Assembly (NCBI GenBank): GCA_000310025.1 | Contig: FN648700.1 | Span: 53,531-76,965, forward strand | DNA length: 23,435 nucleotides | Reading direction: 5' to 3' | From: Ectocarpus siliculosus | Lineage: Eukaryota > Sar > Phaeophyceae > Ectocarpales > Ectocarpaceae | Part shown: one piece after another, positions 13,566 through 18,390 of the stretch | Numbering within the stretch: the stretch's first letter is position 1 | Layout: every line of letters begins with the position of its first letter | Translations under genes and position numbers: made by a program | The notes under the pieces: generated by a model | The model's input: only the letters and a program-made list of their open reading frames with translations | Databases searched by the model: none | Told to the model about the DNA's origin: nothing

Positions 13566-13641
13566 ACAATATCGCCAGACATGAGGCGGATGTCTTCAGG
13601 TGCACGTGTAGACAAGTTCCCCTTGGGATGTGTGATGTGGA
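13566..13641 (+). repeat. Dispersed repeat R, copy 1, left part (interrupted by the transposon)
   Basis: Aligns with 21112-21188: both contain GCCA-ATGAG, TCTYCAGGTKC and RAGCAAGTTCCC-type sequence, then TTGGGATGTGTGATGTGGA (here) versus TTGGGATGTGTGGTGTGGA. The repeat continues at 18041 after the transposon. In one frame the joined sequence is open across the insertion point (MRRMSSGARVDKFPLGCV). Confidence 0.8.
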
Positions 13642-13662
13642 TACCGTAGGTTGCATAAGATA
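13642..13662 (+). repeat. Left terminal inverted repeat of the transposon
   Basis: TACCGTAGGTTGCATAAGATA, identical to the reverse complement of the right end, and closely matched by the left end of the MITE at 7826. The first TA is the target duplication. Confidence 0.95.
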
Positions 13663-13860
13663 TCACACTTTCATTAGATACCACACCCCCTCAGAAAACG
13701 TACACAATACCACACCCGTGTGCTATTTTTTTCAGCCCCCCAAAAAACGTCATTTTATCACACGGTGACATAAGATACCACACCCCCTGAAGTTGGGCCG
13801 CATTAAATCGACGGAGCCCCTGCTTATCACACGGTGTGACAACGTGAGGACAGAGATCAC
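13663..13860. promoter_or_regulatory. Left subterminal motif cluster of the transposon
   Basis: Repeated short motifs in both orientations: GATACCACACCCCCT, AATACCACACCCGTGTG, TTATCACACGGTGACATAAG and TTATCACACGGTGTG. These resemble the right-hand cluster. In other transposons such clusters bind the transposase. Here that is inferred from arrangement only. The transposase start codon is at 13887, so the cluster also overlaps the likely promoter. Confidence 0.7.
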
Positions 13861-13886
13861 GACCACACCACCTGCTCGCAAGAGCC

Positions 13887-14398
13887 ATGGAGGCGGACAA
13901 TGTCGTGGAGGGTGGTGCAGTTAGCAACCCTGCTGAAAGCCCCGCGGCTCAGACTGCAGTGGGTAAGACTCCAGCGGCGGTCCCACGCTCCATAGCGTCC
14001 TTCTTTCCACCCGCCCCGGGGGAACGTGGGGCTGCTCGGACGACTCCCTCAGCAGCCGCACATGACACCGCACGTACTGCTGAGGCCCGCTCAATAGAAT
14101 CTACTGCTACTGAGACTCCCACAGCACCGGCTGCGCCTGCCACCGCGGGTGCCGCTGAAACCTGCGAAGCAGAACCTACTGCTGAGAATCCCGCAGCACC
14201 CACACCCACACCCGAAAAGGCAGCTCTCCCGCCAACCACCAACACCCTGAGCGCGGCTACTGCTGAGAACCCTGCAGCAGCACCGCGCTGCGGAGAACCA
14301 TCGTGCACCAACAAGCCCTTGTGGGCAGAGCCAGGGAAGGATATGCCGGAGTTTTGCGGCAGGCATGCGAAGTCTGGCGACGTCTACATCAAAATAAG
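13887..14398 (+). CDS. Transposase exon 1 with an EsV-1-7 cysteine motif
   Basis: ATG in good context (GAGCCATGG) opens 170 codons plus two bases, ending at the donor ATAAG|GTGTGC. Residues 1-134 are low complexity, rich in Ala, Thr, Pro and Glu (EAEPTAENPAAPTPTPEKAA-like), likely disordered, with a short SIASFFPPAP motif near residue 35. Residues 135-160 are C-GEPS-C, sixteen residues, C-GR-H, i.e. Cys135, Cys140, Cys157 and His160. Twelve residues, including the last one across the splice, then complete C-X4-C-X16-C-X2-H-X12. This is the published signature of the EsV-1-7 repeat, named after a brown-algal virus gene and found in the Ectocarpus developmental regulator IMMEDIATE UPRIGHT. The domain's function is unknown and a zinc-binding role is assumed from the residues. 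One motif is present where many family members have several. Confidence 0.85.
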
Positions 14399-14990
14399 GT
14401 GTGCGCAGAGCGTCTTGCAGTTTGCAGCACATGGGTGTTTGTGAGGATTCTCATGGCTCAAGCAAACCAAAGAACATGCCACGCCTGATTGCCTGATCGA
14501 TAACCAGATCGAAAAAATAATGTGATTTTGACGTCGTGTTGTCGCGCTCGCCTCACTGTACATTGGCATGTACACACTACATTTACATGTAGTTCATATA
14601 TTGTGGTGTGGGCGAAATGTTTACTGGATTGTTTTTTTCACACACACGACACGTTTCCGCATACCGTTTTTTGTGTTTGATGTTTCGGTAGGAAGACTGC
14701 GAAACCCGTACCCAACACGTGCAAATATGTAAACATAACCTCGACAGCAGTTCGTGCCTGTTTGTGTGAGATACGAAATAGGTGCCGTCAGCTGCTCACC
14801 CTCTGTACCTTGCAAGCGTGGACGACATGACTCTCAACCTGGTGGCCGTTGTCAGAGCTATCCGCTAGCCATCGTATTTTTGGTACGTTTGCCTGATGGT
14901 CGTTGGAGCGAGCGCATTGTTACAGATACTGCACTTAACGACACGTATGCTACATGTTGTGTTGCTTCCTCGAACTCATGCGCTTTTCAG
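14399..14990 (+). other. Intron 1 of the transposase gene
   Basis: Begins GTGTGC and ends CATGCGCTTTTCAG. The 5' portion is the read-through of the exon-1 frame to a stop at 14444, so retained-intron transcripts would give a short EsV-1-7-only protein of 185 residues. No other feature is apparent. Confidence 0.6.
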
Positions 14991-15933
14991 GAACGTGCAC
15001 CTGCCTGAAGCACCGACGACAGCAGCCGCAGCGGCGCCCGTCGGCGACGCCATGTTTCCTGGAGAGTCAGAGGAGTGGACAGATGGTTTCGGTGGGCGTC
15101 TCGACGGCACGCCGGCCGAGGGCAAGGGCAAGGGAAAGAGGAAAAGAGAGCCGCTGGAATTGGAGCCACCAAACTTCCCCATTAAGTTTGGTGGTGGCCA
15201 GAAACGCAAGCGGTACGATTTGGAATTCAAAGTAAACGCCATTAAGTACGCGACCATGCAAGCCCGGAGGCGCAGGGGCCTAATGGAACCATCGGTGTGT
15301 CGTATGCGCAACGAGTGCTTGGGATTTCCGAGAAGATCATACTCTCTGCGTGGATAAAAGACAGAACAAAGTACGAGAAGCAGCTGGAACAGGCAGACCA
15401 GCTCGGGGCCAAACGCAAGAAGAAAGCCCGGAGCGTGAAGTCGTTCAGAACGGGGAGGGTTAGGTCAAACGCTGAGGCCGAGCTCGAACTTCTCGACTGG
15501 ATCAACGATGTTCGTTCGGAAGCCACCTCTGCCCGCGTCTCTACAAGGATGATCAAGAACAAGGTGGTATCGCTCAACTCGCTTTGGTTCGGCCCGAGGC
15601 CTGCAGCGAACGACCTGGGGGGGCAGTAGAAAGTACCGCAACAAGCAGACTCACTGGTGCAGGAGGTTCCTTAGGAAGAACCGGTTGTCATTCCGGGCGG
15701 TTACCAGGCAAGGCCAGAAACTCCCTTCCGGGTGGCCTGCGATTGCCATGAAAGCCGTCAAGGAATGGAGGGCGCTTCGTCACGGAGGAATCGACGGTGG
15801 GGGAGGACGGAGCATGGGGGGGGCAACGAGCAATGCGCCTTCGAAGCCACCTCTGTTGTTCAAGGAGGAGCAGAGCTACAGCATGGATGAAACTGCTGTG
15901 TGGATGGAGCCCGCTGGCACGTCGACCGTGGCG
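14991..15933 (+). CDS. Transposase exon 2, helix-turn-helix domains and first catalytic Asp
   Basis: After one base completing Arg, the frame reads [16 protein letters not shown], then the basic [10 protein letters not shown] and [19 protein letters not shown], the beginning of the pogo/pipsqueak-type DNA-binding helix-turn-helix. At about 15257-15280 the homology moves to another frame ([38 protein letters not shown]), and at the G7 run 15617-15623 it returns to the first frame ([20 protein letters not shown]), the CENP-B-type second DNA-binding domain. The exon ends with [20 protein letters not shown], carrying the first catalytic Asp. The net shift is zero. A stop (TAG at 15627-15629) blocks the middle frame. 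Confidence 0.8.
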
Positions 15934-16246
15934 GTGAGTTCAATAGTGTTGCTTCGAGTCATGTGCCTGTCTGGTCGTTTCTTGGCATTCCGTGCAAACA
16001 GTGGGCATTGTGATGCAATATTTCTTGCCGTACGTACTCAGTGTCCAGCCAGTAAGGCTAGACGACGTTGGTATTGCGCTTATGCCGGGTTAGAAGTTTC
16101 TTACCATTCGCATCCATCATCGCTGTACTGCAAAACCCATACGTTGCTTTGTGCGTGAAGAGCTGTCATCCTCATCTACAAAATCGACTTTTTTCGTCGC
16201 CTCTGCTTTCTCTATTGCTTATTGCTTTTTATTTTGTCGTTCGCAG

Positions 16247-17186
16247 CACACCGGTCAGAAAGAGGTGGCCATCAAAACCGGTGGAAAGGAAAAGTTGCGG
16301 ATCACTGCCGTGCTTGCAGCAAACATGAAGGGCGGCAAACTCCCGGCGCTGCTCATCTTCAAGGGTAAGCCTACGGCGCCGGGCAAAACCCCCGCTGCCA
16401 ACAGCATCGAACGAGAGTTCAAGGTGGGCAAGGACAAGAAGGGGATAGTATACCCTCAGAGCGTTGTGTACGCCGTGGACGACAAGGCGTGGCACACGCA
16501 GCGCGTCTTCAGGGATGTTTGGCTCCCCCAAGTGTGGAACCGGCGCCCGGGTCGCGAGGGGGTCCTGGGCAACTACCGTCAGCCGGACACGCTGCTATCG
16601 TGGGACGATTACACCGTGCACAAGACAGCCCTGTGCAAGGAAGCGATGGACAAGTCCAACACGACGCTGTTTTTTGTCCCCGGAGGCCTAACGCCCAAGA
16701 TCCAGCCTTGCGATGGACTTATGAACAAGCTGTTCAAGTCCAACATGTCCAGGCTCTACGATGACCACATGGCCTCCACCGACGCCGTGCGCAACGACCG
16801 CGGCTACCCGGATCCCCCATCGAGGGGATTGCTCGCGCAGTGGGTGAAGAAAGCGTGGGATGAAGTGGACCCTGAGAGCATCCGTTCGAGCTGGAGGAAG
16901 GCTGGCATGACCCTTGCCTTCGATGGATCTGAGGACGAGGCGTGGGCCAACAAGGAGCTCAAAAAAATCCGACGCCCAAGGGAAACCACTTCGTGCAGAC
17001 GGCGACGCGGCCGATGCCGGCGTGGAGGAGGCTGGCCCATCGGAGGAGGGGGAGACGATGGCCGACTTGTTGGAGGTGTTGGAAATCGACGACGATGACA
17101 GCTCGGGAGATGGCGAAGGCAACGATGACTCGGAGGTTGAGGTCATGGCAGACTTGCCGGGGGCGGACGTTATTTGCATAGACTGA
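16247..17186 (+). CDS. Transposase exon 3, rest of the DDE domain and acidic tail
   Basis: Acceptor TTTTGTCGTTCGCAG, then HTGQKEVAIKTGGKEKLRIT, PALLIFKGK, VYAVDDKAWHTQRVF, LLSWDDYTVHKT (second Asp), TTLFFVPGGLTPKIQPCDG (third Asp) and MNKLFKSNM, the standard order of a pogo/Tigger catalytic domain. The frame open from 16247 stops at 17098 with an Arg/Gly-rich end. From the A7 run (16961-16967) the neighbouring frame reads KSDAQGKPLRADGDAADAG, then LLEVLEIDDDDSSGDGEG, to a TGA at 17184-17186. This acidic tail looks like the true C-terminus, so the A7 run probably lost or gained a base. Confidence 0.85.
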
Positions 17187-17208
17187 GGTGTCTTGTCTGG
17201 TATCTACC

Positions 17209-17220
17209 TACCGTAGTTGC
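17209..17220 (+). repeat. Internal copy of the transposon's terminal motif
   Basis: TACCGTAGTTGC, followed by ATG, matches the first 15 bases of the TIR with one gap, 22 bases downstream of the transposase stop. It could be a relic of an internal rearrangement or chance. Confidence 0.35.
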
Positions 17221-17559
17221 ATGCCATGGTCAAGTCAACCAAAGCTGCTATTCGAGCCAATTTGTCCTGGGTTTCATATGTTTCGGTAGTCGCTTGTCCT
17301 CGTGGTTTCTAGCTTTGGTTGATATGTAGCTGGCACTTGCTTGCGTCCTATGTGGTTCCAGCTTGAGTGGTGAACGCAAGTCTTGCAAGTGGTTGCGTCG
17401 TCCAGGTGCCTGTGTGCTGTCGTTTTGTCGCACACAACACCGGCACAACCGCTATGAGGTATCGGTTCTACGTCTTCGTTGTGTACCTATGCGAAGAATA
17501 TCCAAAGGATACTGCGAAGATGCACGTGGGAAAGCATGTACGTGATGGAGTGGTGTGAG

Positions 17560-18019
17560 CCATCCTAGCTATCACACCTGTTTTACACCCCTTGACGCCC
17601 TTTGTACGTGGGTGCCTCCTGTAAGCGCACCGCATCACTCGAGCGACATTATTATCACACCCCCGTAGGTAGGGTCTTGTGGGCGCACGGCAACCACACG
17701 GGCGACATTATCACCCCCCCGTCAGGCCGGGTCCTGTGAGCGAGTATCACCACACGGGCGAAGTTATCACACCCCCTTGTTATCACACCCCCTGTAAGCC
17801 GGGTCCTGTGAGCGCGCTTCATCACACGGGCGACGGTATCACACTCCCTTGTTATCACACCCCCTTGTTATCACACCCCCTTGTTATCACACCCCCTGTT
17901 GGTGAGACTCTGTGAGTACACTTTATCACACGGGTGACATAAGATATCACACCCCCTACAGAATACCACACCCGTGTGATAACTTTCGTCCTCCCGAAAA
18001 TGTTATCACACGGGTGTGG
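17560..18019. repeat. Right subterminal array of TATCACACCCCC motifs
   Basis: A tandem arrangement of imperfect units combining GGGTCCTGTGAGCG, ATCACACGGGCGAC and TTATCACACCCCCTTG. The last motif occurs directly repeated several times near 17763-17900. Mirror-related TTATCACACGGG and CACACCCGTGTGATAA motifs lie toward the end (17926-18019). The array is longer than its left-hand counterpart. Such asymmetric clusters are typical transposase binding regions in other systems. Here that remains an inference. Confidence 0.75.
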
Positions 18020-18040
18020 TATCTTATGCAACCTACGGTA
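18020..18040 (-). repeat. Right terminal inverted repeat of the transposon
   Basis: TATCTTATGCAACCTACGGTA, the exact reverse complement of the left end. The last TA (18039-18040) is the second target-duplication copy. Confidence 0.95.
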
Positions 18041-18312: not shown

Positions 18313-18390
18313 CATGTACACATCCCGGAACTTGTCCACACGTGAACCTGGAGACATCCGTCTCATAGTTGGCATCAGCGGCAGGATACC
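18313..18390 (-). repeat. Dispersed repeat R, inverted partial copy
   Basis: The reverse complement reads GATGCCAACTATGAGACGGA, TGTCTCCAGGTTCACGTGTG and GACAAGTTCCGGGATGTGTA, matching the left part of repeat R (21118-21180 and 13580-13640). It lies shortly after the right part of copy 1 in opposite orientation, so copy 1 and this fragment form a partly inverted pair. Confidence 0.75.

Follow-up and report, generated by a model that had tools for sequence, protein, structure and literature searches.

The closest described system is TcMar-2_Ec32, a 4.4 kb autonomous Mariner-Tc1 element of Ectocarpus whose transposase, in the passages cited here, is reported to have acquired an N-terminal EsV-1-7 domain, and whose partner is the 217 bp MITE TcMar-N1_Ec32 (PMC12477816, Genome Biology 2025). 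Among the matches listed in a literature search that combined EsV-1-7 with transposase or transposon, this account was the only one. The domain itself belongs to a family with 90 proteins in Ectocarpus species 7, for which a passage of one paper cites the hypothesis of zinc-finger transcription factors (PMC12629598). The developmental regulator IMM is a member, as stated in part of another (PMC7457493), and the same and a further source describe IMM and a viral link of EsV-1-7 in the parts cited (PMC7457493, PMC12993054).

We analyzed a stretch of 23,435 nucleotides of Ectocarpus siliculosus contig FN648700.1 (the window), for which an earlier note had proposed a transposase fused to an EsV-1-7 domain, adding that no such transposase had been described. 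The fusion is real; the claim of novelty has been overtaken by the 2025 description from Ectocarpus, since when the fusion has been known. The element in the window agrees with what the cited passages say of TcMar-2_Ec32 in its length of 4.4 kb, its N-terminal EsV-1-7 domain, and a 217 bp MITE with common ends. The likeness is one of description (size, domain, and MITE), and on that footing the family is most likely TcMar-2_Ec32 itself or a very close relative. In the cited passages of that account there is no mention of the exon boundary, of sister lineages, or of a PIP-like motif, and the terms "PCNA" and "sliding clamp" are absent from its main text. Beyond the published account, we compare the element with a sister lineage and describe an old diverged copy, the boundary of exon 1, and a PIP-like motif. 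The system is a clear case of a lineage-restricted zinc-finger-like module taken on by a transposase, and its module-free sister lineage and many young copies offer a natural comparison for the biochemical role of the EsV-1-7 domain.

The boundaries of the element were given by its empty site. When the flanks of the window copy were joined at one TA, the joined sequence matched two uninterrupted relatives of the flanking repeat across the junction, at 88% (L049) and 87% (L050) identity; the transposon therefore has the limits listed in Table 1, with the TA duplicated on either side and 4395 bp between the TAs. A TA also flanks both ends in 18 out of 18 copies followed from one terminal inverted repeat (TIR) to the other (L001–L018), so the TA target-site duplication of Tc1/mariner, pogo/Tigger-type elements is present both at the window copy and across the family. 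A search of the genome (189 Mb) with the initial 21 bases of the TIR, allowing up to one mismatch, gave 268 matches, compared with zero for a reversed control. Copy numbers are lower bounds (40 of 217 candidates were scored), with at least 18 TIR-to-TIR loci. The subterminal repeats on the 3' side and the inner end of the TIR have a TATCACAC core in common, and these repeats may be transposase-binding sites.

Table 1. Features of the transposon, in coordinates of the window
Feature	Position	Strand	Basis
Target-site TA, 5' side (partner 18039-18040)	13642..13643	.	Flanks joined at single TA match L049, L050
5' terminal inverted repeat TACCGTAGGTTGCATAAGATATCACAC (first TA = target-site TA)	13642..13668	+	TIR analysis, genome counts
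Whole transposon (TcMar-2_Ec32-like), ~4.4 kb	13644..18038	+	TIRs; 18 TIR-to-TIR genome copies
Exon 1: Ala/Pro-rich arm, PIP-box-like motif, EsV-1-7 domain	13887..14398	+	Pfam match; open in 10/18 copies
PIP-box-like P-R-S-I-A-S-F-F (aa 33-40); consensus Gln is Pro	13983..14006	+	13/18 copies, first aromatic F or Y
EsV-1-7 domain CGEPSC...FCGRH...IKI (aa 135-170)	14289..14396	+	Pfam PF19114; whole-genome domain search
Intron 1, phase 2, AAG|GTGTGC ... CAG|G	14399..14990	+	GTGTGC and TTTCAG in 18/18 copies; splicing inferred
Exon 2: linker plus putative helix-turn-helix region; frameshift in window copy	14991..15933	+	HTH_Tnp_Tc5 E 0.017, below cut-off
Intron 2, GTGAGT ... CAG	15934..16246	+	Sequence; frame continuity in open copies
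Exon 3: catalytic DDE_1 domain plus acidic tail; in window copy, frameshift close to C terminus	16247..17186	+	Pfam PF03184 E 2.5e-18
Subterminal TTATCACACCCCCT-type direct repeats, families D1-D4; putative transposase-binding sites	17564..17897	+	Function inferred
3' terminal inverted repeat (last TA = target-site TA)	18014..18040	-	TIR analysis, genome counts

The gene model was based on other copies of the element, not on that of the window, which is broken by a stop at amino acid 293 in the exon 2 frame and by a frame change near the C terminus in exon 3. A full frame of 796 amino acids over three exons was found in three copies (L005, L013, and L017), and 15 of the 18, the window copy among them, are broken. 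By inspection, exon 1 is shifted or stopped in eight copies (L004, L006, L008, L010, L011, L012, L014, and L018). The intron 1 splice bases are in place in all 18, and the earlier note's proposal that the splice phases join the exons, with AG|G spanning intron 1, was borne out by GT/AG ends and in-phase exons. From these splice-site bases and phases, exon 1 is predicted to be spliced to the transposase exons. The intron 1 donor (GTGTGC) falls short of a strong consensus, and a GTGAGG at 14441 would also preserve phase 2; AAG|GTGTGC is retained in a diverged copy, L034, in which the alternative donor has no counterpart.

The domain at the end of exon 1 was identified by its profile. Pfam PF19114 (EsV_1_7_cys) matched exon 1 of the window at amino acids 135–168 with 35.7 bits against a cut-off of 25 (E 8e-9), upholding the reading of the earlier note, and matched the open L005 protein with 32.9 bits, also above the cut-off. 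Cys135, Cys140, Cys157, and His160 all lie where that note had placed them, in C-X4-C-X16-C-X2-H spacing. The X12 tail it had added did not hold: AG|G comes 10 codons past the His in the transposase and mostly 11 in host arrays, so that the tail is one codon short and X12 is not exact in the sense of the arrays. The spacing was found once in the six frames of the window and averaged 0.04 occurrences in shuffled windows (2-mers, n = 100), 4 out of 100 of which had at least one; the pattern alone is therefore weak, and the profile score is the evidence. In aligned columns, with frame ignored, every one of the 18 copies retains all three Cys codons, and 17 retain His160. Two of the three fully open copies have all four ligands, and the third, L013, has Arg in place of His160. 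Searching the genome with the 36-amino-acid domain returned 14 full-length matches at 94%–100% identity (window included), one at 74% (L034), and five partial matches of 24 residues; the other domain matches listed had at most 53% identity (150 of 360 candidates scored). C-X4-C-X16-C-X2-H spacing was found in an alignment of the domain with 34 host repeats, one host single domain, and L034. An AlphaFold2 model of the domain, computed metal-free, was confident (mean pLDDT of 87.9), and its comparison with the PDB gave a sole, weak row. The domain is predicted to bind zinc.

The remainder of the protein places the element among pogo/Tigger (DDE_1) transposases. Pfam PF03184 (DDE_1) was above its cut-off both on exon 3 of the window and on L005 (E 8.5e-19), and the candidate acidic triad SMDET, WDDYTVHK, and QPCDG fits by eye; among the relatives described below, the first Asp is replaced by Gly in P0006, and the third position is missing in P0005 and P0006. 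Like pogo/Tigger elements, the transposon has a DDE_1 domain, a TA target, TIRs, and a candidate helix-turn-helix-like region upstream; unlike them, it carries an EsV-1-7 domain and an imperfect PIP-like motif at its N terminus, and its helix-turn-helix profile match (HTH_Tnp_Tc5, 15.5 bits) falls under the cut-off of 22.2. The profiles, the copies, and the diverged L034 together back the fusion with a pogo/Tigger-like (DDE_1) transposase that the earlier note had described. We are confident that the element is a young, multi-copy Tc1/mariner-type (pogo/Tigger-like, DDE_1) cut-and-paste transposon carrying an EsV-1-7 fusion, of which the window holds a decayed copy.

Does the domain matter to the transposon? 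One possibility is that it is a passenger without a function in transposition. One zinc ligand is lost in the open copy L013 and one, Cys140, in L034, and significant constraint was not found among the young copies: most other regions of the 18 drift near neutrality, and the domain variants among them (three synonymous and four nonsynonymous) are too few for constraint to be demonstrable there. Against this stands the comparison with L034 (on C43), an old broken copy whose exon 1 domain is 74% identical and scores 21.9 bits with PF19114 (cut-off 25). Between L034 and L005, the domain has 11 synonymous and 17 nonsynonymous differences (dS 0.73, dN 0.23, dN/dS ∼0.3; rough Fisher p 0.017), a synonymous excess, and it was kept over ∼0.7 synonymous substitutions per site. 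We consider it unlikely that the domain is only carried along.

A sister lineage bears on when the domain was acquired. Relatives from Ectocarpus sp. CCAP 1310/34 (P0001–P0006) have 45%–70% protein identity with the transposase, and four genomic loci (L029–L032) have exons 2 and 3 in common with the element or flank them. The DDE exon is constrained between lineages (L005 vs. L029, dS 0.867, dN 0.204). The sister exon 1 looks coding, with whole-codon gaps between L031 and L032 (dS 0.283, dN 0.133), and ends in the same phase 2 as that of the element (TCC AA|GTGAG). An EsV-1-7 match was absent in a profile search of L031 exon 1, P0002, P0004, and P0006, the latter three of which reach upstream of the MFPGE segment; exon 1 is mostly or wholly missing from P0001, P0003, and P0005, which are thus uninformative about it. 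Because EsV-1-7 is absent from a sister lineage whose exons are arranged in the same way, the domain was probably gained in the lineage of the element. A loss in the sister lineage from a transposase clade that had the domain ancestrally appears rather improbable: the domain-bearing lineage is itself old, as L034 and non-autonomous copies of 83%–92% identity that begin the domain attest, and the gene model of the closest relative found, P0001, omits exon 1, but all four informative sequences lack the match, and the EsV-1-7 family is abundant in the genome outside transposons, a ready source for a gain. That exon 1 lies outside the transposase altogether, as a separate frame or 5' region before a start at the exon 2 Met (MFPGES), is very improbable; positions 13848–14444 are one 198-codon open frame running through the donor, which is itself not of strong consensus, and two relatives' gene models begin MFPGES or MMFPGE (P0001 and P0003), but sister gene models P0004 (MEHSNN..., with a garbled middle) and P0006 (...MENPNN...) join exon 1 to later exons, sister exon 1 evolves in a codon-like manner with whole-codon gaps, and exon 1 ends in phase 2 in both lineages. 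Two gene models show joins of another kind. P0002 has a reverse-transcriptase-like start (RVT_1 E 0.0063, below the cut-off) before the transposase and is probably mis-joined, and the eukprot model P0007, for which PF03715 and DDE_1 matches had been precomputed, combines an unrelated N-terminal part with a piece of the sister transposase and is mis-joined or stems from a chimeric gene.

Returning to a gain in the lineage of the element, the abundance of the family makes a host source for the domain likely. Host EsV-1-7 proteins (IMM and relatives, PF19114) have C-X4-C-X16-C-X2-H in common with the transposase; however, host arrays are tandem repeats of 38 amino acids, whereas the transposase has one copy, with GD where host repeats have GM and a tail one codon shorter. 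Of the 150 candidates scored out of 360, the host match with the best score outside the element is L038 (G000 C24:907477), an exon with one domain that is 44% identical to that of the transposase. Like exon 1 of the transposase, L038 reads CGEPxC...AEPG, and this motif is followed at a short distance by an AG|GT donor of the GTAAG type (AAAAG|GTAAGC) in matching phase; unlike it, L038 is without a transposase, and its donor lies 11 codons past the His instead of 10. In 38 of the 71 motif matches in host sequence, moreover, a phase-2 AG|GT comes next, formed by the Arg-Cys codons that link one array repeat to another. Given this and the offset of one codon, the transposase donor GTGTGC may equally come from an Arg-Cys pair of an array. 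The gain, at the 3' end of exon 1, may have come about when a stretch of host EsV-1-7 sequence was captured. The converse traffic, in which transposons spread the EsV-1-7 family as the earlier note had suggested, found no support: matches above 53% identity (150 of 360 scored) were the element's own copies or L034, the host arrays are tandem repeats of 38 amino acids, and homology with the element ends inside the domain in each of four non-autonomous copies that were inspected (L023 and L025–L027).

The N-terminal arm of exon 1 holds a second motif. The pogo transposase binds PCNA, and a PIP-box, with the consensus Q-x-x-[I/L/M]-x-x-F-[F/Y], is conserved in Tigger and Lemi1, according to the cited part of a review (PMC5371812). 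We rejected PRSIASFF as a true PIP-box: Pro occupies the place of the required Gln, and only the hydrophobic and aromatic part fits. Because the Gln is missing, we term the motif PIP-like. Its counterparts in sister exon 1 are PQQITSFF, PKEITSFF, and PQQIASCF.

In the mechanism that we propose, the helix-turn-helix region would bind the terminal repeats and the DDE domain would cut and join at TA. The EsV-1-7 domain, on the N-terminal arm, would bind zinc and add a DNA or protein contact, possibly beside the clamp-binding-like motif. A second nucleic-acid or protein contact by the domain is plausible, and we give the added-contact mechanism an even chance. Very doubtful, in our judgment, is the bolder version in which the exon end and splice donor were captured together from a host EsV-1-7 gene and the N-terminal arm, now pairing the clamp-binding-like motif with a module from a family of developmental regulators of brown algae, steers transposition to replicating or EsV-1-7-regulated chromatin; its odds were slightly lowered because the L038 donor is one codon off and a phase-2 AG|GT follows many host repeats.

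The family also includes shorter derivatives. Three MITEs (L046, L047, and L048) are 221, 222, and 230 bp long with their TAs, or 217, 218, and 226 bp without them, and have 27–30 bp of their ends in common with the element; for one of them, a first look at the genome gave 2394 candidates, of which 40 were scored. Longer non-autonomous copies (L023 and L025–L027; 83%–92% identity) retain the 5' part as far as a position within the EsV-1-7 domain; their homology to the element ends within this coding sequence and restarts in the 3' part. Finally, the transposon of the window is nested in another repeat with inverted arms of its own (13574–13620 and 18327–18373), and its right flank has at least 40 other long matches at 79%–94% identity (40 of 128 candidates scored).
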